64,000 nt of DNA, taken from Sanderia malayensis (Eukaryota > Cnidaria > Scyphozoa > Semaeostomeae > Pelagiidae). The stretch lies in assembly GCA_013076295.1 (NCBI GenBank), contig RQOL01000906.1:4030001-4094000 (forward strand), given 5' to 3'. The notes under the pieces are model-generated. The model made no database searches. It saw only the letters and a program-made list of their open reading frames with translations, and was not told the origin of the DNA. Shown here piece by piece: positions 8,901-55,618 of this stretch. Both the position numbers and the translations under genes were made by a program. Every line of letters begins with the position of its first letter. Position 1 is the stretch's first letter.

Positions 8901-11900
8901 GACTGATTTTCGAATTATACAAAATGAAGATGATGACGTTACAGCATAGACAGAACAACTCGAATGCTAGATATGAAGAAAAACATTTACATATCCACGG
9001 AAGCCAAGCACTGCTTACTGCAGTGCAGCACTGTTATTCAGCAATGCCTATGAACTGGACAACGTACCCCATTGGCAAATTACACCTGAAAAACCAGGAG
9101 CACATTTACAGCCAAATTTTCCAACGCAAGTTCCACCATTCAGACATCTCGGGCAGTCGGCTTTGGAGAAAAGGAAATATGTATTAAATCAAATCAAATC
9201 AAATCACAAATGATCTACGAAAATATTGATTTGTGTTCAGTCAAACATCAAAACTTACGAAAGCAATCTCGCTGTCCATAGCCAAAGTGATATCCTTTTG
9301 GACAGCTGCACTCATATGAGCCAGGTGTCTCGGTACAAATTGCATCACTTCCACAAGGGCGCTCTGAGCACTCTTTTATATCTGAAAAGCCAAACAACCC
9401 AGCTAAACATCAGTGTGTCAAACATGCAGTAGAATACGAAACTTGCTAGGGGAATTAATGTAAGAGTAATATAAGTGCATGTGAAATTGAATGAAAGTGA
9501 CTGTTGATTTACCCAAGCATTTACTGCCATTCTTTCGAAATCCTTTATCGCAGACACAGTCAAATGAACCAATTGTATTGACGCATTTTGAATGACTTTG
9601 ACAAGAAATCTTTGTTTCTGTGCACTCATCAATGTCTAAAAATGAAATGAGAACATTTAGATAAATAAATGATCGAAAAAACGATTAGACATCAATCTAA
9701 TGTGGGCCACAAAATAGACCACGAAAAATGCTTTTAAAGTCAAGAAAATGGCTTTCAAATTGAGAAAACTTATTCAATATCAAGAATACATTTTGCAAAT
9801 CAAAAAATCACGACTTATAATAACATAAAGATGTAGAAATTAACTGCACCATTATATTATCATTGTATAACAGAACGTAAAAAAAAGACAGCTTTGAAAA
9901 CAAAATCAGAAGTTTGCAATGACAAAAGTGGATAGGGCTATGAAACAAAAAAGGAACGAAATGTTCAGTTGGTCATGTAGTTGATGTTAAGAAGTTGCAT
10001 CCCTCTTGCTTACCTCTACATTGTCGTCCATCTCCTATGAAACCACGTTTGCATAGACAGTATTTCGATCCCTTTCCGTTGCTATAGCATTCGGCATTGA
10101 AATGGCATTTGCAAGGCAAGTCAACTAATAGTAGGACGAAAATAGCATCTATAATTTTCGGATTTTTCGAAAAAATTAGCAAGAACACTGGTTCTCAAAT
10201 TTTCTTGGGATAACCTGGATTTGCCAGTGATCTAGTTTAGCTTTGTAAATTAAATTAAATTGAACCCACATACGTTTACAATTGACTCCATCACCAACAA
10301 ATCCTTTTTTGCACTTGCAAAAGTACTGGGATTGCTCTCGAAGACATCCACCATTTTCGTGGCACATATACGACCCACACTTTATTCTTCTATCCACTTT
10401 GAAAATAAATTTGCTCGTTATAACACGGAAAAACATATCACAATAAATTTAGAAGCATTTTAGACAACAAGGTATGCACCCTCTAAACTTTTCATCAACT
10501 TGTACATTTTGGTAGAAGGTTAGGATTTCACAACATAACGATTTTCTAACGAACTAAGTTTTTGAATCGTATTCCTCGATAAGATAATTGTTAAGAGAAC
10601 TACGTTATGGGAATTAACTGCCATAATGCTTCGATTAAGCGCCCGGGGCGTTTATTAAGCTTTTTGGCATTTTAGGGAGCTTCTATACGAGGGGGCGTTT
10701 AAAAGGAGGGGACGTTTAATCGAAGCATTACGGTATGCAGATGTTTCGTGGAGAGCTTATGTTGACAAGTTTTCTTACCATTACATATGGTGCCATTGCC
10801 AACATATCCTTCCTTGCAAACACACTTATCTTCAATGCTATTTCGTCTGCAAATTGCAAATTCCGAACAAACATCGCCATTACAATTGCGTGAAACAGGA
10901 GAAGTTGTTGTCTTTACTCTTTCTGTTACTTCCACTTCTTTCGCAGTGGGCCTTTGAGTTGATTCGATGCTATCTTTAACATTTGATGGAGACGAACTCT
11001 TTTTCGTGAAAATTTCTTTAATTGTAGTCTTTCGGGTTGGTTTAAGAGTTTTTCTGGTGACGAGAAGTCGCTTGTCTGTTGCTTTGGGTTGTTCTGGGTC
11101 ACCAGTAGTAACAGGGATTGCAGCAGAGGTAGGTTGTGGCGCTTTGGTGGATTTTGATTTCGTTGGTAGATTTGTTGGAGCTAAACAAACAAAAATTAAG
11201 AAGCAACATAACAATAAACAACAAACTCTTAAATGATAATTCGAACACAGAAATCAAATAATCCATACAGTTCTCAACCTAGTAATACTGTTTTAAAATT
11301 ATTTTTTAAGCAGCATTCAATGAAAATAAAACGTTCCGCATAATGCAATAAAGACCCCTCTAGCATACATTAAGTGAAGACCAAATACATTTGTACAATT
11401 GCCCCCATGGGCCACATAGATGACTCACAAATGTGTTAATTGCAGAGGCATAGAAGAGAGGTTCATTTAAGCAGCTGTGACTGTCTATCTATCTATCTAT
11501 CTATCTATCAAATGATGTACAAATCCCAAAAATTGGGTATTACGCACAATTTTGTTAGTGATTAGATGATAAAATGTTAGTGATTAGAAAATATAATGTT
11601 ACCTTTTAAGAAACTATATACTGCTAGAGATTACAAACGAAATTCAACTATTTGGTGCAATGGAGAGAAAATACTAAGTATTGGACTGCAAGTGGATGTT
11701 TACCCACCCAAAAGAAACGATAACAATATTTATGTTTTGTTACAGTATTCTTACCTGAATCAGATGAGATAGTCGAGAGTCTTTCTGCATACATTAAAAG
11801 TTGACTGTTTTCAATATATGAACCAATTGGATTTGTCACCTTTACAGTGGCTTTGTAGTCCAAATTCTTGGCCCTTGGCTCAAATGTCACCAGTCTGTTC

Positions 11901-14900
11901 ATTGTATAATTGATGTGTCTATCGTCCAAAATATACGTCATGCTACCGCTACTGTATACTTTGCCCCTGGTTGCAACTTCGTAGCTTTCCGTATGAGGTT
12001 CAAATCTATGGATACTCGAGTCTTTTACGACCGGCAAAGGCATGTAGCCTTCGATTTTAGTGTCAAAAATCAAAAAGTTGAATGAATCAAATCCTTTCAT
12101 TCGCTGAGTTACTTTTAAAGCTTCCCCTATTGAAATAAGAGTTCAAACATAGATAAAGAAAGTCAGGAAAATGATACGTATTTTGCTGTTAGTGCTGAAG
12201 CGTAGTTTACAAGGGGTATCCTATCTCAGAATATTTGCGCTGTCAAAAATTTAAAAATTACAGTAATTTGAGCATGAACCTGTAGTTTGTCAAGCAGGGA
12301 TTGTCTGCAAAAAGCAACATTCCTTTTTTTGGCCTAAGTTTTTTCTGGAGTTTTCCTACCCGTATTTGCTGCTTGCAGTGCAAATAATAACAGTTGAAGT
12401 GCCAGAAACTGACCTGTTTTGAAAATGACAACTGAAGTTGCTATGAATCTATCGCCAACAATGTCGAAGCCTGCTTGTTGCTTAGATGGACTGAACAGCC
12501 AGCCAAGCAGTCCAATGATCGGTGGAACCATTTGCAGGTAGTAGCCAGCTTTTGGTCCAACTGGTCCAACAGTGACATACAAGTCACCTCTTTGAGGGTC
12601 CATAAAGGCATCCAAATCAGCATCAGGAATTGCAGCATTATTGACAATGCCAGTAAACTTGCCAATCAGCTTAACACGACCATCTCAAAAGTAAATAAAT
12701 AAATAGCTGCAACAAGCAAGTTCATGACATTGATTAGCATACAGGGAAAGATAGAGCTTGATTTTGTTTTCATAAGAAAAAATCCTAAACATTGCCACTG
12801 GGTGGCAGAAAGCAACCCTAAAACATCATGTTTAGCTTGTGGGAAGGTACTGTATAGCTTGGATTAACTTTCAAAAGAGGATACAAATGACAATACAATT
12901 ACATGTATAGATTACCTTTTCTGGTGCAGATTTTTCCATTTCCAATATACCCATCTCTGCATGTGCAGCTGTAACCGGGATCCAAGTTTGAGCAATCTGC
13001 GTGTGTATGACACGGTGAAATGCCCCGAACACATTCGTCAATATCTAACGGAGGAAAAAACGTGGATCAAACAGATGAGTCCAGATATCTGCAGCAGCGT
13101 GGCCAGCTCGGGTGTCGCCCATTCTGGCAGCGTAATAACTTAGCTAGCATGTATCAAATACCGTAATGCTTCGATCAAACATCCCCTTCTTTTAAACGTC
13201 CCCCTGGAATAGACGCCCCCTAAAATATCAAGAATTTAATAGCAACATTTAATAAACGCCCCGGGCGTTTAATCGAAGCATTAGGGTATACCCAAGTAAT
13301 AAACACTGTTGTCTTGCATTCTCACCTTTTCCTTTTCCCAGGAGTCACAAATTGAAAGAAAGGATGTTCATAAAAAGCTGTATTTCTATATCAAATCGAC
13401 GCAGTTATACTTCAAGTTGATAAGACTATCAACTTGAAGTAATTCTCATGCTTCTGTCTCATCTATGACTTCGAAAATTATAGCCCCAGAAAGCTATCAA
13501 CTCGACATACCTTTGCGAATCCTTCTTCTAGTTACTGCATCACGCCACAAATATGAATCTGGTTCTTGAATTTGGAAGAAGCTTTTATCATCGGAGCTTC
13601 CAGTGAAAAATATCCACTTGCCAGCTGTCATTGTGCTTGAGGTTTTGAACAACAATGACATATTCCTACCAGATCTGGAATCCAGAAGCTCTGTAAACCT
13701 GGTACGAAAAACATCTTTATACAGACTGATGCAATTCACACTTTGCCATAACATGCAATGCAGCGTTTAGAGTAAAACTATGTTTCAAGTTGAAGAGACT
13801 TCTTGCTTCTTGCTGGACCACGAGTCAAGTTACCTGTACTTCTGTGGCCCATATGGGATCTTTAGATACAAAGGCAGTAAAAATAATAATCAGTTATTGT
13901 TTACCTTGTTCGATCTCCGTAACTAAATCCAGATTGTGCATTCATGTTTTCGACTACATTTCCCAAGCTCAAGCCATCCTCATTCTTGAATAGAAACTGG
14001 ATGAAACTTTTTCTTTGTCCAATCATCAAAACAGCTTGGACCGTAGATTTCTACAGTTATGACAAAAAAGAATAATGTGTAATGCAAATTAATGTGAAGT
14101 AATTGGTGGAAGCACAAAGAACATTTTCCCCTCCTAACGTGAAAGGCAATTGTGTAAATATATGTCTTTTCATAACTTTATGTGCATACGTCATAGAAGC
14201 TGTTTATTTTCAAACTTGACCTGGGTTCTCAAGCTCTAATTCCAAAGAATTACATTAAAAGCGATTTTCTCCAAAAATATCTCTACCAAAACAAGTTAAA
14301 ATAGTTTTTGTTTGTGGTGGAAGCATTTGAAAAACAATATTTCAAATCCTTTGGTCATAAATGCTTATTTACTATAAAGAGTCTCTCAACGTACACTCCA
14401 TTGGTTTTGTACAACACAAAGTTGGTGAAAAAAAACTGTATTAGTGAATGAATAAATTGAAAGCAAAGTCAGCTATATTCCACCCCCATTTGATATACAC
14501 AAAAAAACCTAGCAGTATATAACGCATTTCAAGGGGCCTAAAACTAAACCCTTCGTTATTAAATAGATCAGCTCAGAATAAAGATTAACGTTTGGTTAAT
14601 CTTTATCCACGTTTGTTCATGAAGTCTTCAAACCCAGACAGTTTGATTATAACTGTCGAGTCTGAGCTTCAGAAAATCAATTTGAAATAAAGAGAGCCTG
14701 TTTTAAAAGTCTATTAAACGACAGGGACCATATAGTCACAAAAAGATGTAGGTTGAGATTGCTTCTATCGCCAACTCCTCCAGACAATACTTAACACTAT
14801 ATAAGGAAATGAACACTGTGGCAATTGTATAATCTAATCGGCTCGAATGGGGAAATATACTAGAATTGCTCCGAAGTAAGTTTTTTTTTTGCCGAAAAAA

Positions 14901-45800: not shown

Positions 45801-47522
45801 ATGGATATGAATATTCGGACTCTTAAGGCGATGGAAGAGACACTTGATGCCATTAAAAGAATCGAGGAAAAGGTTCAGGCTGTTGCTGCAATTGAGGAAA
45901 ATACTCGAGCTGCGCCCGGTGCAATGCAACCGTTCAAAAAGAATGAAATAAAAAAAGAAAATAAAGTTGATGTTTTTGCGAGAATCAGTGTTGTAACAGT
46001 CGGAGACATAGATCCGGTAAAGCAAAAATTTAAATGTGAATTTCATCTTTCATTGCGATGGGAAGACAAAAGCGAACAACTATTCAAGAAGCTTAAGGGA
46101 GGAGACAAAATCAAATGGGGAGAAGAATTTTGGGAACCAGCGATTTATTTCGTAGATCTGGAAAACATAGAGACATACGAAAGACGGGAAACAGTGCAAA
46201 AAGAGGTATATACTATTGTGAATGCAAATTTTATGCTATGAATTTAAGTTTTAATCAGTAACCACGAATCGTATCATTGACCATTGAATGATTAAATGAT
46301 TAATGATTGTTAATCATAATCTATCAATACTTGATAACCGATTACTAATTAACGACATGATTATTAAACACTGATAAATGATTAATATATATTTCTTATA
46401 AAGGGGGAAGTAGCGTTCTACTACCACATCAAGGGAACATTCAATGTAAAGATGGATATACACCATTTCCCATTTGATTATCAACGATTTGCAATCACGA
46501 TGACGTCACACTGGGACATATCGGAAATCGAATTTAACCTTGACAAAGGTGCAAAGGTTGGAGGCCAGCAAAACAATAATCAAAGTGAAAATGGTACAAA
46601 GGATGAAAGCCAGCAAAACAATAATCAAAGTAAAAATGATGCAAAGGATAAAGGCAAGCAAAAAAAGAATCAAAATGAAAATGGTGCAAAGGATGGAAAA
46701 AAGAAGACTGATGACCAGAAATGGAATGGTACAGAGGATGGATTAAAGAGAAATAACATTCGTACGTGGAACTTTGCTGCTCAAAACGAATGGTGCATCC
46801 AGAAATATGTTCTATCCGAAAAAACATTCACAAAGAAAGAGTATTGTGAAGAAGGATTAATGTCAACATCTCCAAATATCTACCCACTGTACAAGATCAA
46901 GATGTACGCTCGTCGAAAGTATGGTTTCTTTCTGTACAACATTGCATTGACGATGGCTTTGATCACAGCTCTCACATTCACTAATTTCTCAGTTGATCCA
47001 GACACCCCCGGGGATAGAATTCAAATTTCACTGACACTACTTCTTACGTCCGTTGCTTTGAAGTATGTTGTCAATGAATATATTCCACAAACGCCAACAC
47101 CTACGGTGATCGGGTCCTATATTCTGGCTTCCATGGTGTTCCAGTTTGTCATGGCAATTCAAAACGGAATATCTGGGTTAGTTCATTCATACATGCCTCA
47201 TGCGTTGGAAATGTTTGAATGGTGCAGTTTGGCAATTCTCCTGGCGCTATTTGTTACAATACAAAGTGTGTTCCTTTTGTATTGGTGGAGATATACTAAA
47301 ACCTGCAGAGATAAAATCGAATACCATAAAAAGATGTACAAAATGCAGGAAGAAAGGGTTGATGAAGAGTACGAAGTTGAACGCCAAAAAATAAAAGATA
47401 AAAAAGCACAAGAGAAAGAAGCACAAAAGAAAAAAGAACAAGAGCAAAAAGAACAAAAGAAAAAAGAACAAGAGAAAAAAGAACAAGAAAAAAAAGAAAG
47501 ACAAAAAAAAACGTTGGTGTAA
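45801..47522 (+). CDS. Cys-less pentameric ligand-gated ion channel, copy 1
   Basis: Exons 45801-46205 and 46404-47522, 507 residues. A coiled-coil-like start (no signal peptide seen) precedes the channel ligand-binding fold: FHLSLRW, FWEPAIYF, and the loop MDIHHFPFDYQ. The two Cys-loop cysteines are replaced by Val150 and Phe164, spaced exactly 13 residues apart as in the family. A Q/N/K-rich insert occupies about 183-240. TM1 is about 309-332; TM2 338-362 (PGDRIQISLTLLLTSVALKY), with acidic Asp at -1', Arg 0' and Leu 9', and no Pro-Ala insertion, which points to cation selectivity; TM3 368-391; TM4 406-429. The TM3-TM4 link is only about 15 residues, as in bacterial members. A Lys/Glu/Gln tail follows TM4. 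Ligand unknown. Tandem duplicate of 49261-52744. Confidence 0.88.
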
Positions 47523-49260
47523 ATTTGATGCGTCAAGATTTCTTCATTTTAAAATCGTATCAATATCAAGTGAGTTTTCATATCTAAATCTATGACATTT
47601 TTTTCGTTTTAGCTCCTTCAGAAAAGAAAGTTGGCGCGTCACATTTCTCTGAAGTTGAATGTAAACTAATGTTTAATACACACATGGCATGGTTAATCAA
47701 TTGAAGACAGTTTACTGAAAAACGCAACATATATTATGTGCATAACGAATCGTTAACGTAATCAGACCATCAAGCATTATGATGTTAATATCCTGCTTGG
47801 TTTAACAAGCTCCAGGTACAGCAAATTATTTTATGGTATTAAACTTAATCGTAGCATGCAGCATTAGAAACTTACCTTTGAAAATCATTAATCTTTTTTT
47901 AAATAATTTGAATTGAATTTAGTGTGGTCATTTTTTGGCAGAATTTGTAACCTATAATTTTGTAATAGCTTCTTAAAGGGAATTTTGATTTTACATTTCA
48001 TAATGTTGCATAGGATTAGTAGCTTAACTGATTCATTTTCATTAATTATCAGTAGATTGAATTTCATAAAAATATCTTGAAAAAAATAGTTCTCTTTCTT
48101 TACCAGTAGCTAAAAGTTGAAGTAACAAATTCAAGAAGAAACAAAAACAAAAGAATGCTCACTCATCGAGTCGTGAAATTGTATTTTTTATTACTTGTTG
48201 AATTAAAGTATCGAAAACCAAGTTGTGAAAACCTTTTCTAAATAATTTTACATATTCTTTTGCTCGGCATCTCTTCAAAGCAAAATTACCAAAAAGTGCT
48301 TGCGAAGTCCACATAAAAAATTTGAGTTTTGGGGGTGCGGGTGGGTGAACTTGGGATTGCTTACTATAATTTCCTTTCGAGACCAAAAGCTATATGAAGT
48401 AAAATATAAACAAGACGAAAATAAAATTTGCCTGGTAATATTGAACTAAGCTTTAGATTCTTTAAACAACTTTATATTATAATTCACTGTTGATTTATCA
48501 AGCTATTATACACTCATTCGTCTGTAAGAAACTCTCTATAAGGAACCCTAGTATTGGAGCCATTGAACTGCTAAGAAACTTTCAGCACTGGATTGAAGAC
48601 ATTAAGAAACTTAAACCTGAAACATGTTTTCGAAAGAAATCATAACGTTCAGTGCATATTAAACAGTTAGACAAATAGAGGGTATGCATATGCCAATATA
48701 ACAACAACAAAATTGGAAAGTTTCGATTGAGCTCTAACGATGATACTTGTGACTTAGATATAAAACACATTTATGGCATTGAGATAGATAATTGAAATAT
48801 AACCGAAATGTGTTTTTCTGTCTCCTCAAACAAATTAAGAAATGAATTTCATGCAATTCATCACTGGTTCCAAATGAGGAAAATCCAAAAATACGAAACT
48901 TATTTTCGCATATTATTGATGCAATTGCATGATAATAAATATAACGATTGTGAAACATAACAATAAAAACAAAGAACCGAAAGTAAAAATCTGTTGTTCC
49001 CTTGATATTTATTATGAAAAATTGATATGCATGAAAAAAGTTGAATGGCAAAAAACAAAGATTTTTCACCCTTCATATTGTGTTAGCTATAAGTGACAAT
49101 AAATACCATAGCAGACTATCTGTCTGCAGTAGATCTGTCGAGGTGTGGCTGTGAAGTTATCAATATCAAGACATTCTGAGACAAGCTAAACCAAATGTGA
49201 ATTACTTGAAAACTAAACCAAATACTATTAACAAAGAGAAATTAAACTTAATCACTGAAC
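47523..49260. other. Region between the two channel genes
   Basis: The first ~250 bp match the 3' flank of gene 2, including a possible 3'-UTR intron (GTGAGTTTTCATATC to TTTTAG). From about 48870 it matches the gene 1 upstream region. The middle is unique AT-rich DNA with no gene seen. Confidence 0.6.
49020..49185 (+). promoter_or_regulatory. Channel upstream module, gene 2 copy
   Basis: Third copy of the AATAAATACCATAGCAGAC module, followed by the same leader to the ATG at 49261. Confidence 0.5.
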
Positions 49261-52200
49261 ATGGTGGTGGATGTGAATATTCGTACTCTTGAGGCGATGG
49301 AAAAGACACTTGATGCCATTAAAAGAATCGAAGAAAAGGTTCAGGCTGTTGCTGCAATTGAGGAAAATACTCGAGCTGAGCCCAGTGCAATGGCACCCTT
49401 CAAAAAGAATAAAATAAGAGAAGAAAATATAGTTCATGTTTTTGCGAGAATCAGTGTTGTAACAGTCGGAGACATAGATCCGGTGAAGCAAAAATTTAAA
49501 TGTGAATTTTATCTTTCATTGCGATGGAAAGACAAAAGCGAAGAACTATTCAAGAAGTTTGAGAGAGGAGACCAAATCAAATGGGGAGAAGAATTTTGGG
49601 AACCAGCGATTTATTTCGTGGATCTGGAAAATATAGAGAAATACGAAAGACGGGAAACAGTGCAAAAAGAGGTATATACTACTGTGAATACTAATTTTAT
49701 GCTATGCATTTAAGTTTTAATCAGTAACCACGAATCGTATCATTGACCATTGAATGATAAAATGATAAATGATTGTTAATCATAATCTATCAATACTTGA
49801 TAACCGATTACTGATTGACGACATGATTATTAAACACTGATAAATGATTAATGAAAGTTTTGATATATATATTTTTATTAAGGGGGAAGTGACATTCCAC
49901 TACCACATCAAGGGAACTTTCGATATAAAGATGGATATACAGTATTTCCCATTTGACTTCCAACGGTTTGTAATCACGATGACGTCACACTGGGATATAT
50001 CGGAAATCGATTTTCACCTTGACAAAGGTGGAAAGATTGAAGACCAGGAAAACAATGTTCAAAGTGAAAATGATGCAGAGAATAAAGGCCAGCAAAACAA
50101 CAATCAAAATAAAAATGGTGCAAAGAATAAAGGCCAGCAAAACAACAATCAAAATAAAAATGGTGCAAAGAATGGAAAAAAGAAGACTGATGACCAGAAA
50201 TGGAATGGTACAGAGGATGGATTAACGAGAAATAACATTCGTACGTGGAACTTTGCTGCTCAAAACGAATGGCGCATCCAGAACTATGTTCTATCCGAAA
50301 AAACATTCACAAAGAAAGAGTATTGTAAAGAAGGATCAATGTCAACATCTCCAAATATCTACCCGCTGTACAAGATCAAGATGTACGCTCGTCGAAAGTA
50401 TGGTTTCTTTCTGTACAACATTGCATTGACCATGGCTTTGATAACAGCTCTCACATTCACTAATTTTACAGTTGGTGCAGATGTCCCTGGGGATAGAATT
50501 CAAATTTCACTGACACTACTTCTTACGTCCGTTGCTTTGAAGTATGTTGTCAATGGATATATTCCACAAACGCCAACACCGACGGTGCTCGGGTCCTATA
50601 TTCTGGCTTCCATGGTGTTCCAGTTTGTCATGGCAGTTCAAAGCGGGATATCTGGGTTAGTTCATTCATACAAGCCTCATGCGTTGAAAATGTTTGAATG
50701 GTGGAGTGTGACAATTCTCCTGGCGCTATTCATTACAATACAAATTGTATTCCTTTTGTATTGGGACAGATATACTAAATCTTGCAGAGATAAAATCGAA
50801 GGCCATAAAATGAAGTACGAAAATCGGCAAGAGACGGTTGATAAAAAGTATAAAGATGAATGCCAAAAAGTACAAAAGAAAAAAGAAGAAGAGAAAGAAG
50901 AACAAGAGAAAAAAGAACAAGAGAAAGAAGAACAAGTGAAAGAAGAACAACAGAAAAAAGAACAACAGAAAGAAGAACAAGAAAAAAAAGAACAAGAGAA
51001 AGAAGAACAAGTGAAAGAAGAACAAGAGAAAGAAGAACAAGTGAAAGAAGAACAAGAGAAAAAAGAACAAGAGAAAAAAGAACAAGTGAAAGAAGAACAA
51101 GAGAAAGAAGAACAAGAGAAAGAAGAACAAGTGAAAGAAGAACAAGAGAAAAAAGAACAAGAGAAAGAAGAACAAGTGAAAGAAGAACAAGAGAAAGAAG
51201 AACAAGAGAAAGAAGAACAAGTGAAAGAAGAACAAGAAAAAAAAGAACAAGAGAAAGAAGAACAAGAGAAAGAAGAACAAGAGAAAGAAGAACAAGAGAA
51301 AGAAGAACAAGTGAAAGAAGAACAAGAGAAAAAAGAACAAGAGAAAGAAGAACAAGAGAAAGAAGAACAAGAGAAAGAAGAACAAGAGAAAGAAGAACAA
51401 GTGAAAGAAGAACAAGAGAAAAAAGAACAAGAGAAAGAAGAACAAGAGAAAGAAGAACAAGAGAAAGAAGAACAAGAGAAAGAAGAACAAGTGAAAGAAG
51501 AACAAGAAAAAAAAGAACAAGAGAAAGAAGAACAAGAGAAAGAAGAACAAGAGAAAGAAGAACAAGAGAAAGAAGAACAAGTGAAAGAAGAACAAGAGAA
51601 AGAAGAACAAGAGAAAGAAGAACAAGAAAAAAAAGAACAAGAGAAAGAAGAACAAGAGAAAGAAGAACAAGAGAAAGAAGAACAAGAGAAAGAAGAACAA
51701 GTGAAAGAAGAACAAGAGAAAAAAGAACAAGAGAAAGAAGAACAAGAGAAAGAAGAACAAGAGAAAGAAGAACAAGAGAAAGAAGAACAAGAGAAAGAAG
51801 AACAAGTGAAAGAAGAACAAGAGAAAAAAGAACAAGAGAAAGAAGAACAAGAGAAAGAAGAACAAGAGAAAGAAGAACAAGAGAAAGAAGAACAAGTGAA
51901 AGAAGAACAAGAAAAAAAAGAACAAGAGAAAGAAGAACAAGTGAAAGAAGAACAAGAGAAAGAAGAACAAGTGAAAGAAGAACAAGAGAAAAAAGAACAA
52001 GAGAAAAAAGAACAAGTGAAAGAAGAACAAGAGAAAGAAGAACAAGAGAAAGAAGAACAAGAGAAAGAAGAACAAGTGAAAGAAGAACAAGAGAAAAAAG
52101 AACAAGAGCAAAAAGAACAAGTGAAAGAAGAACAAGAGAAAGAAGAACAAGAGAAAGAAGAACAAGAGAAAGAAGAACAAGAGAAAGAAGAACAAGTGAA

Positions 52201-52744
52201 AGAAGAACAAGTGAAAGAAGAACAAGAAAAAAAAGAACAAGAGAAAGAAGAACAAGAGAAAGAAGAACAAGAGAAAGAAGAACAAGAGAAAGAAGAACAA
52301 GTGAAAGAAGAACAAGAGAAAAAAGAACAAGAGAAAGAAGAACAAGAGAAAGAAGAACAAGAGAAAGAAGAACAAGAGAAAGAAGAACAAGTGAAAGAAG
52401 AACAAGAAAAAAAAGAACAAGAGAAAGAAGAACAAGTGAAAGAAGAACAAGAGAAAGAAGAACAAGTGAAAGAAGAACAAGAGAAAAAAGAACAAGAGAA
52501 AAAAGAACAAGTGAAAGAAGAACAAGAGAAAGAAGAACAAGAGAAAGAAGAACAAGAGAAAGAAGAACAAGTGAAAGAAGAACAAGAGAAAAAAGAACAA
52601 GAGCAAAAAGAACAAGTGAAAGAAGAACAAGAGAAAGAAGAACAAGAGAAAGAAGAACAAGAGAAAGAAGAACAAGAGAAAGAAGAACAAGAGAAAGAAG
52701 AACAAGAGAAAAAAGAACAAGAGCAAAAAGAAACCTTTGTGTAA
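49261..52744 (+). CDS. Cys-less pentameric ligand-gated ion channel with giant EKEEQ tail, copy 2
   Basis: Exons 49261-49671 and 49883-52744, 1090 residues. The first ~430 residues are almost the same as copy 1, including the missing cysteines (Ile152 and Phe166), the FPFDFQ loop, the pore PGDRIQISLTLLLTSVALKY and a short TM3-TM4 link. Differences include Gly at the outer pore position where copy 1 has Glu, and an exact 45-nt tandem repeat (15 residues, QQNNNQNKNGAKNKG) inside the extracellular insert. After TM4 the tail runs to the C-terminus as about 124 five-residue units (EKEEQ, VKEEQ, EKKEQ, EQKEQ). In known channels this end is extracellular. The intact frame over 1.86 kb of repeat argues against a pseudogene, although the repeat is open in several frames and so is weak evidence by itself. 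Confidence 0.87.
50870..52738 (+). repeat. 15-bp coding minisatellite with 90-bp and 495-bp higher-order units
   Basis: The basic unit is GAGAAAGAAGAACAA, with variants starting GTG, GAGAAAAAA, GAAAAAAAA or GAGCAAAAA. In the middle, six-unit blocks (one V unit, one KK unit, four EKEEQ) repeat several times in a row. Nearer the end a block of 33 units recurs with a 495-bp shift, for example the rare GAGCAAAAAG at 52106 and 52601. Confidence 0.95.
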
Positions 52745-54154: not shown

Positions 54155-54387
54155 GTCATTGTACTGCGTAGCAGATGACATTGCGAAGGACAATGCATGT
54201 CCACAATGACATCATCACTGGCGAATAGTCAAAAATGTCCCATGTACGAGGCTGAATCTTTGTCTGGATGGAGGAATAAATATTCAAACTCGTATTCAAC
54301 TCAATGAACATTCGTCAGGTCAGGTCAGGTAACCAACCGAAAGTAAAATATATTTTTCCTTTCCTTATTCTTCAAATACCGTCCAAA

Positions 54388-55618
54388 ATGTCGACATCAA
54401 ACTTTGTTCTACACAACGACACTCCAGTCTACGTGCTAGAATGCAAACCGGCTTTTGATGCACTTGATGATAAGGAAAAGAAGTATGCACATTATCTTTC
54501 CAGAGCAGCTTACACTGGAGGCCTTATTGTCCTGCTCCAGACTTCTTCAGAATCTGCTGCCATATTCATGTTGCTTCAAAAACTGTTCGCCGAACAAAGT
54601 ATCAAATCATTGAAGGAAGCTGCACAGAAGGCAGACAGAAGAATCACGGATGATGATTTCCAGGTAAAAAAAATGGTCCAATCATTCAATTTGATTTGAT
54701 TGCAATCAATGAATCGGAGTATCAGATGATTAGTGATTCTGATTGATGAATGGGTCGCACTGCTTCGATTAGTCTAACTATTCAGTGGGCCCTTTGTGCT
54801 TAGCACATAAATCAATACCTTACGAAGATAGTAAGCGTATTTGCCTATCAATCAATCAATCAATGATTGTGGCACCTGATCAATTGTTACAGTTATTTCA
54901 TTACTGGTACGTACAGCCACAGAAAGGAAAAAGTTCCTTGGACATTTTTGTTCAATCCCTTGCCACATTGGGACCTGGGTAGATATCTACTGTTCATGTC
55001 ACATTACTTGGCTCACTTTATTGTCTTGCATGACTCAAAATTCAAATGTTGAACTACAAGTAATAGAAATCTGTTTTTTTTCACCAGGCCTTTCTTGTGT
55101 ATGCTGCTGGGTTATACACCAATATGGGCAACTACAAATCATTTGGAGACACCAAATTTATACCAGGAATAAAAAAGGTGCAACATTTCGGGTTGATTGT
55201 TTGTGACAATTTATTCTGGTGAGCAGCAAAGTGCTCAGTACCCATTGTTACTTTGTTCTCTTCTGGCTGCAGGATAAATTGAAGACAATCATATGGCAGA
55301 GTGAGGCTTTCAAGGATCACTCAGTACTGATGGAGCCTCTTTGGGGTGAATGTTGCAATGCAATTTACAATGTGGAGTCAAGATTCTGTGAGCTTGGAAT
55401 GGAAGACAAGGTCAGATTGGTCAAACATGTTCATTTCATTCTATGATTTTCACCCCATCAATTGGCTTTGTGTCAATATTAGTACAAAATCATTCAACAT
55501 GTTAGAACAATAGTCTTATTGAATTAATTCTAGGGAATATCAACATACTACTCCAGCAATTGTAAGAAAGAAGATGTGGAATTGGTCCAGGAGTTCATGA
55601 AGGAAAAGGTATCATCAT

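Follow-up and report, generated by a model that had tools for sequence, protein, structure and literature searches.

That invertebrates and protists have a Cys-less clade of pentameric channels is already in the literature (Jaiteh, Taly and Henin 2016, PMC4795631; Johnson et al. 2023, PMC9874803). The passages of the 2016 report consulted here describe a clade without the cysteine pair but with the Pro-loop motif, which includes metazoans and protists, among them one Nematostella sequence, deuterostomes and Lophotrochozoa. In the corresponding parts of the 2023 report, planarian homologues are placed in mechanosensory neurons and have RNAi phenotypes. With many invertebrate groups thus holding Cys-less members in print in both papers, as far as these passages go, the view of a preliminary description of the present locus, that Cys-less loops are rare in animals, does not hold.

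Organization of the tandem pair

The window analysed here, a stretch of 64,000 nucleotides from the jellyfish Sanderia malayensis, contains two adjacent two-exon genes in tandem, each encoding a complete pentameric channel subunit (Table 1). At both start codons, an in-frame stop begins 12 nts upstream and no AG lies between the stop and the start. Copies 1 and 2 are young tandem duplicates from the eukaryotic Cys-less pentameric channel clade; their introns are 95% identical and their dN/dS is 0.47 (347 codons). The Asn/Gln-rich insert of copy 1 is modelled with low confidence (pLDDT about 40), and the last 622 residues of copy 2 consist of 314 Glu, 150 Lys, 127 Gln, 29 Val, 1 Thr and 1 Phe.

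Table 1. Features of the two tandem channel genes (positions within the window)
Feature	Position	Strand	Basis
Copy 1 exon 1: N-terminal helix (aa 2-36) with IEENTR motif and first half of the ligand-binding domain	45801..46205	+	splice/translation, model
Copy 1 exon 2: remaining ligand domain, M1-M4 and C-tail with KKTLV end	46404..47522	+	splice/translation, model
Copy 1 Cys-less Pro loop, V150-F164	46446..46490	+	translation
Copy 1 Asn/Gln-rich insert ahead of IRTWNF, 45-bp tandem repeat	46541..46695	+	repeat, model
Copy 1 C-terminal Lys/Glu/Gln repeat, 15-bp unit	47386..47512	+	repeat analysis
Copy 2 exon 1	49261..49671	+	splice/translation
Copy 2 exon 2: remaining ligand domain, M1-M4 and 659-residue C-tail with KETFV end	49883..52744	+	splice/translation
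Copy 2 Cys-less Pro loop, I152-F166	49925..49969	+	translation
Copy 2 Asn/Gln-rich insert, 45-bp tandem repeat	50027..50173	+	repeat analysis
Copy 2 tail array, 15-bp unit, 124.3 copies	50868..52732	+	repeat analysis

The youth of the pair, the dN/dS between its members, the very long 15-bp repeat of copy 2 and a EukProt model of copy 2 that lacks M4 would fit one or both genes being decaying duplicates without function. This is nevertheless very unlikely, given that the frames are open, the gating residues are retained, EukProt holds gene models for both copies and the comparison of copy 1 with the paralogue g20423 gives a dN/dS of about 0.34-0.46.

Channel core and missing disulfide

Both copies have the ligand-domain and four-helix fold of the superfamily, the FPxD loop, the pre-M1 Arg, a basic residue at M2 0′ and the M2-M3 Pro, fold membership resting on single-chain structure models together with sequence. 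Translation confirmed the earlier observation that the Cys-loop positions are Val/Phe in copy 1 (150/164) and Ile/Phe in copy 2 (152/166), so that both lack the cysteine pair, spaced by 13 residues and flanking FPFD, which defines a Cys-loop receptor. The very short M3-M4 link was also confirmed (12 residues in copy 1).

Across the clade, the pre-M1 Arg, M2 0′ Arg, 9′ Leu and M2-M3 Pro occur in 57/57 representatives and the Pro-loop Asp in 56 of them. An acidic residue stands at -1′ in 91 of the 107 full-length rows, and the pore is predicted to be of the cation type. Both cysteines together are found in none of the 108 full-length homologues. Ligand domains contain 1 to 10 cysteines across the clade versus 4 in each of seven controls. 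One ligand-domain position is Cys in 68/106, which is suggestive of an unpaired cysteine.

Phylogenetic position

A first tree had 66 rows; a second was built without Prok_L038 and P0131, which have long branches. In this second tree, the 47 Cys-less rows form one side of a branch (bootstrap/SH 98/98; 99% of 200 bootstrap trees), in which both copies group with the Nematostella, deuterostome, lophotrochozoan and protist Cys-less channels. The alignments comprised neither N-terminal helices nor M4 nor tails, apart from bacterial frames that entered at full length (Prok_L038, L039, L040 and L042), for which columns filled in less than half of the rows were dropped. The two copies thus belong to the eukaryotic Cys-less clade by tree as well as by fold, and the same genome holds about 13 genes of this clade by our own grouping. 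Hence, of the three origins offered by the preliminary description, the persistence of an old eukaryotic Cys-less lineage is the one supported by the tree and by the approximately unbiased (AU) test.

The idea that the disulfide was lost secondarily and locally, within a cnidarian clade of Cys-loop receptors, has precedents, since losses in nematodes, a spider and Oikopleura are mentioned in the passages of the 2016 report (PMC4795631). The Cys-loop rows of the same genome nevertheless form a separate branch (100/100), no full-length homologue has the cysteine pair, and joining the copies to the 11 Cys-loop rows of this genome only was rejected (p-AU 0.00138). The nesting which the preliminary description had named as the result that would speak for local loss was therefore not seen against these 11 rows, and the probability of this explanation is negligible.

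Acquisition of the gene was the third origin proposed; it could have been a recent transfer from bacteria or an ancient transfer between eukaryotes before the cnidarian/bilaterian split. By sequence, the best matches among solved structures are ELIC chains (E about 1e-13), foraminiferan rows are among the first to branch in the clade, with weak support, and the authors of the 2016 report, in the passages available, left an ancient lateral transfer possible (PMC4795631). However, joining the copies to the prokaryote-type rows was rejected (p-AU 1.5e-5; 6 rows, ELIC and GLIC themselves lying outside the tree), each gene has one intron, and there are members from Anthozoa, echinoderms, amphioxus, hemichordates, brachiopods and molluscs. 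The scan of genome contigs yielded one bacterial relative of 22% identity from 38 pattern matches. In the sample of this bacterium's phylum, 5/299 genomes, its own included, have the ligand domain, and these were used as controls; a protein search of phage records gave 0 matches. What stands of the acquisition proposal is the ancient eukaryote-to-eukaryote transfer, and acquisition in either form is considered quite unlikely.

Signal peptides and charge distribution

None of the 96 scorable homologues has a signal-peptide-like start (12 of 108 were not scorable), though many of the homologues are reading frames taken from metagenomes and may have incorrect ends. The leader and charge measures are our own simple scripts, by which neither copy has the N-terminal signal peptide of metazoan Cys-loop receptors. 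Of the seven conventional receptors encoded by a single exon in this genome, five pass the strict leader limits, as do the prokaryote-type channels L009 and P0147; looser limits, chosen after inspection of the table, pass all seven together with L009 and P0147, and the homologues still score 0/96. P0034, one of the 12 unscored homologues, has a hydrophobic stretch at its start, directly at the first strand. P0149, taken as prokaryotic, is without a scored leader, yet its charges are conventional.

Of 56 representatives at 70% identity, 55 have more Lys and Arg on the ligand-domain side of the membrane than on the opposite side, and the remaining one (P0134) is tied. The same excess is seen in 1 of 17 controls, the conventional receptor L013, which falls on the inverted side by 5 to 4; one control is tied and 15 are reversed. 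In this count, loops were hand-set for L009, P0147, P0149, L039, L040 and L042. L038, whose M1-M2 turn is unclear, and L041, which has no membrane part, were excluded; L037 designates the same locus as L009. When the first 15 residues behind M4 are compared with the M3-M4 link alone, they are richer in Lys and Arg in 52 representatives, tied in 4 and poorer in 0 (n=56). Because the link of the clade is short, it offers fewer places for these residues; their density is roughly 0.14 per residue in the link versus 0.24 after M4. The mean net charge in the clade is -0.86 for the link and +3.16 for the first 25 residues after M4. A basic pre-M1 stretch is also present in conventional receptors.

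C-terminal tails and MORN repeats

At least 20 residues follow M4 in 53/57 clade representatives, and 3-13 residues in the conventional frames (n=11). Both copies end in T-x-V. Among 54 representatives, S/T-x-V/I/L ends occur in 7 versus 1.2 expected from composition, and class II PDZ-like ends in 7 versus 3.0 expected. The paralogue P0121 carries MORN repeats (E 7.3e-36) ahead of the ligand domain with compatible splice sites, in a single gene model without transcript support; the related rows P0072-P0079 start without MORN repeats. The preliminary description was silent on the missing signal peptide, the charge pattern and the tails.

Proposed topology

The absence of signal peptides, the charge bias and the tails suggest an inverted orientation. 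No leader together with positive charge on the ligand-domain side, the combination proposed to define an inverted class, is what was found here. The best explanation, and in our judgement a probable one, is a Cys-less clade of inverted topology in which both termini and the ligand domain would be cytosolic. Membrane insertion would need no signal peptide, with M1 serving as the signal anchor and holding the N-terminus inside. The cytosolic part would then comprise the ligand-binding domain together with the N-terminal helix and the long tail after M4, and the M1-M2 and M3-M4 turns would be outside. The assembled subunits would form cation-type channels that a cytosolic ligand opens through the ordinary coupling of the Pro loop to M2-M3, whose residues are conserved, while the coils and the tail would tether the channel to cytosolic partners. 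In the cytosol a disulfide would be of no use, and this would account for its persistent absence.

Alternatively, members of the same clade could keep the ligand domain outside, by means of M1 as a reverse signal anchor or of an unusual leader, and work as ordinary sensory or non-synaptic ligand-gated channels. The fold and the coupling residues match those of extracellularly gated channels, the authors of the 2023 report describe the ligand domain as extracellular in the parts consulted (PMC9874803), and natural N-glycosylation sequons are present, although their number, on average 0.83 per ligand domain for the clade and 1-3 for seven controls, is uninformative on orientation. In such a channel, however, some 300 residues before M1 (copy 1) would cross the membrane leaderless, together with MORN repeats in one gene model, and neither the lack of leaders in 96 homologues nor a charge pattern opposite to that of 15/17 controls would be expected. 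The conventional orientation is thus possible but rather doubtful.

Extended to the whole branch of the superfamily, from foraminifera and cnidarians to molluscs, echinoderms and amphioxus, the inverted reading is somewhat favoured: all these channels would be upside-down, with the ligand domain as a cytosolic sensor and the tails and coils as cytoskeletal or scaffold anchors, and the absent disulfide would mark a compartment rather than being merely an ancestral relic. Orientation would then be a more surprising feature than the absence of the disulfide. To our knowledge, family members of known function respond to extracellular or periplasmic ligands. If the proposal is true, the inside-facing animal branch would represent a novel class of cation channel, gated from inside the cell, and there would be a simple reason for the absence of the disulfide in exactly this branch. 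Ligand hunts for the flatworm, coral and jellyfish members would also change, because an agonist applied outside would fail.

Comparison with known channels

Among the matches listed in the open PMC literature, no paper describes an inverted or leaderless pentameric channel, nor was the combination of missing leaders and ligand-side basic residues found in print. The main text of the 2016 report contains "signal peptide" and "coiled" 0 times, and in its passages the inverted topology, the expansion, the tails and the MORN fusion were not found (PMC4795631). In the available parts of the 2023 report, "signal peptide" and "topology" occur 0 times, although DeepTMHMM located the membrane helices, and cnidarians are absent from the taxon list in the text (PMC9874803). 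A further paper, listed in a search on the planarian homologues (PMC12626421), contains 0 of four channel terms.

The eukaryotic clade of 2016 shares with that of the copies the absent cysteine pair, the Pro-loop motif and the taxon range, according to its passages (PMC4795631). Similarly, the flatworm and schistosome channels, as described in the parts of the 2023 report consulted, are Cys-less, have an acidic residue at M2 -1′ or -2′ and span a wide taxon range, as here; the difference lies in the ligand domain, which is called extracellular there and proposed to be cytosolic here (PMC9874803). The planarian mechanosensory role is compatible with either orientation.

Prokaryotic channels of the ELIC/GLIC type resemble the copies in the Cys-less loop, the short M3-M4 link and the fold. 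They differ in having leaders (scored in L009 and P0147, by eye in L038-L042; none scored in P0149), K/R-rich M3-M4 turns and C-tails of 0-10 residues (six rows scored, one tie), and they are separated from the copies by the tree (p-AU 1.5e-5). The conventional receptors of the same genome (L001-L007 and L010-L013) share the pre-M1 Arg, M2 0′ Arg, 9′ Leu and M2-M3 Pro, as well as the acidic -1′ residue (11/11), but differ by the presence of the cysteine pair (11/11), M3-M4 loops of 79-201 residues, tails of 3-13 residues and signal peptides in 7/7 scorable receptors with the looser limits (5/7 with the strict ones).

Gene pair and phylogenetic placement

The preliminary description had proposed a tandem pair of pentameric channel genes lacking both Cys-loop cysteines, and this pair is real. 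Copies 1 and 2 lie head-to-tail in an assembly of 184 Mb and 918 contigs, and both have gene models in EukProt (P0001 and P0002; P-numbers denote homologue proteins, L-numbers genomic loci or frames). M4 and part of the repeat are left out of P0002 and the genomic frame is open through M4; the omission could stem from a faulty model or from real splicing. With 95% identity between their introns and a dN/dS of 0.47 (347 core codons), the two copies are a young pair under moderate constraint. Shifted and opposite-strand frames are open too in the repeat array of copy 2, so further long ORFs in the array are not necessarily genes.

Features in the window, with positions in nucleotides
Feature	Position	Strand	Remarks
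Copy 1	exons 45801-46205 + 46404-47522	+	507 aa
Copy 2	exons 49261-49671 + 49883-52744	+	1090 aa
Copy 2 segment compared with P0002, genomic frame	50700-50870		open
Copy 2 tail array	50868-52732		15-bp minisatellite unit, 124.3 copies; encodes Glu/Lys/Gln tract, one frame open
Presumed nidogen-type gene, by look	10699-12100	-	EGF-like pieces below cut-off, G2F domain over cut-off
Reading frame, presumably resembling dipeptidyl peptidase III	54304-54699	+	no Pfam match at 0.01

Homologue searches returned 24, 76 and 109 proteins, 150 different in all. The closest named matches are cnidarian, and the named cnidarian sources include Exaiptasia, Dendronephthya, Oculina, Montipora, Acropora and Nematostella; others are sea urchins, starfish, sea cucumbers, one brittle star, amphioxus, hemichordates, Lingula, molluscs and the foraminifer Ammonia. 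After removal of P0147 as a prokaryote-type control, 108 of the remaining 149 were full-length by our criteria, including P0149, a presumed prokaryote judging by its sequence and contig. None of the 108 has both cysteines: the first position is occupied by E (51), T (21), S (16), V (8), C (2) or other residues or a gap (10), and the second by L (101), F (6) or M (1).

In a tree of 64 rows (47 Cys-less, 11 Cys-loop receptors of this genome and 6 prokaryote-type), a single branch (98/98, recovered in 99% of 200 bootstrap trees) sets the Cys-less rows apart from all others, the Cys-loop rows form a separate branch (100/100) and the prokaryote-type rows are poorly resolved (63/12). A simple local loss of the disulfide, under which the copies would nest inside a Cys-loop clade, is rejected, as forcing them with the 11 Cys-loop rows gave a p-AU of 0.00138. 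Grouping with the six prokaryote-type rows was also rejected (p-AU 1.5e-5). Both copies and three paralogues form a five-row group (100/100), which is joined by paralogue g20422 and P0009 into seven rows (100/99), and P0081, whose EukProt name we take for the jellyfish Aurelia, groups with one paralogue of this genome. The pair is part of a probable jellyfish expansion of the already published Cys-less clade.

With paralogue P0003 as query, 28 matching places were found, which, grouped by eye, correspond to about 13 Cys-less genes plus fragments: seven genes on contig 859 across about 1 Mb and single genes on contigs 836, 464, 569, 405, 598 and 616. Two paralogues with equal ligand-domain scores (G000:C859 4866993-4868273 and 4964263-4965663, near 4.87 and 4.96 Mb) may be a recent duplicate or an unmerged haplotype. 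At least 128 exon-level matches to the ligand-domain family as a whole exist in the genome, and the classification covers those described here.

Orientation in the membrane

Scoring for a leader covered 96 of the 108 homologues (Met start, with 25 or more residues ahead of the first strand), within the first 45 residues ahead of that strand. By a simple measure of our own, with strict limits (a 9-residue run free of D, E, K, R, N, Q and H, and a 12-residue hydropathy of at least 1.8), a signal-peptide-like start was found in 0/96, and five of the seven single-exon conventional receptors of this genome passed, together with the prokaryote-type L009 and P0147. At looser limits (8 and 1.6), chosen after the table was seen, 7/7 conventional receptors, L009 and P0147 passed and the Cys-less homologues were still 0/96. 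P0149 fails both; it is one of the 12 unscored, with P0018, P0034, P0035, P0036, P0038, P0083, P0094, P0106, P0136, P0138 and P0142. The hydrophobic start of P0034, directly at the first strand, may be intron read-through. In place of a leader, many members have an N-terminal helix closed by a motif (IExNTR, NGR or NSK, for example) that a loose pattern of ours picked up in 68/96. In neither copy can an exon from upstream be spliced on at this point: an in-frame stop starts 12 nt ahead of the ATG, and no AG lies between the two; among six further genes of this genome, two (g20420 and the contig 464 gene) have the stop without an AG and four have an AG.

Mean net charge over the 108 rows is +3.0 in the 15 residues before M1, -1.0 in the M1-M2 turn, -0.7 in M2-M3, -0.9 in the M3-M4 link (median 10 residues) and +3.2 in the 25 residues after M4. 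Lysine plus arginine is higher on the ligand-domain side in 106/108 rows (one tie; one reverse, P0149) and in 55/56 representatives (70% identity, tail of at least 10 residues, P0149 left out), with P0134 tied. The ligand side is richer in 1/17 controls (11 Cys-loop frames and 6 prokaryote-type), namely L013 (5 to 4), tied in L039 and reversed in 15. The 15 residues after M4 are richer than the M3-M4 link in 52/56 representatives, tied in four and reversed in none, a raw difference inflated by the shortness of the link; per residue, the means give roughly 0.24 versus 0.14. Under the established positive-inside rule, this bias would place the two termini, together with the ligand domain, in the cytosol. 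Several agreeing, indirect sequence signs suggest that the Cys-less clade faces the cytosol, which deserves a bench test.

According to the available text of Jaiteh 2016 (PMC4795631), 69 of 218 metazoan sequences are Cys-less, a eukaryotic Cys-less clade was described, and non-synaptic expression was predicted. In the text available, the Nematostella channels of PMC13335744 have the Cys-loop disulfide and PMC11085791 is on diatoms. The term "signal peptide" is absent from the main texts of these three papers and Johnson 2023 (PMC9874803), and no paper among the matches listed in the literature search concerned an inverted or leaderless pentameric channel. The cytosol-facing reading is an addition to this clade, which is itself already in print.

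Tails and fusions

At least 20 residues follow M4 in 53/57 representatives, with a maximum of 580 in the homologue set; conventional frames of this genome have 3-13. Tails of about 360-580 residues occur in P0053, P0056, P0059, P0060, P0063-P0065, P0104, P0105 and P0108, and paralogue P0068 (L033, G000:C569:6469000-6473500) has 559. The tail of copy 2 reaches 659 residues, the last 622 comprising Glu 314, Lys 150, Gln 127, Val 29, Thr 1 and Phe 1, with 123 Glu-to-Lys pairs at i+4 and 120 at i+3. Single alpha-helix rods have this kind of composition and, at 0.15 nm per residue, the tract would span some 90 nm as such a rod. The C-termini of both copies match T-x-V, which is a pattern of class I PDZ ligands, and class I PDZ-like ends occur in 7/54 representatives versus 1.2 expected. 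P0090, which is grouped with Ammonia, carries in its tail a cluster of cysteines adjoining lysines and arginines.

In characterised proteins, MORN repeats typically lie in the cytosol. The gene model of paralogue P0121 places such repeats (E 7.3e-36) ahead of the ligand domain (L032:166-4037), on the same strand and in upstream exons; the splice sites that join the two parts appear sound, both donor and acceptor, and the fusion is a prediction of the gene model. The related rows P0072-P0079 start without MORN repeats. No paper among the matches listed (best 8 of 271) combined MORN repeats with a Cys-less channel.

Gating and proposed function

In planarians, two homologues show expression in mechanosensory neurons, and their RNAi leads to seizure-like movement and reduced sensory function, as stated in the available text of Johnson et al. 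2023 (PMC9874803). These phenotypes fit a channel tied to the sensory cytoskeleton and are compatible with either orientation. As judged from conserved residues, the gating parts are intact in the Cys-less clade: the pre-M1 Arg, M2 0' Arg, 9' Leu and M2-M3 Pro are present in 57/57 representatives, the Pro-loop Asp in 56/57 and W172 in 37/57. A cytosolic ligand would cause the binding loops to close, upon which the Pro loop would push M2-M3 and open a cation pore, the selectivity end of which would face outward. An acidic residue precedes 0' in 91 of 107 full-length rows, as it does in cation channels.
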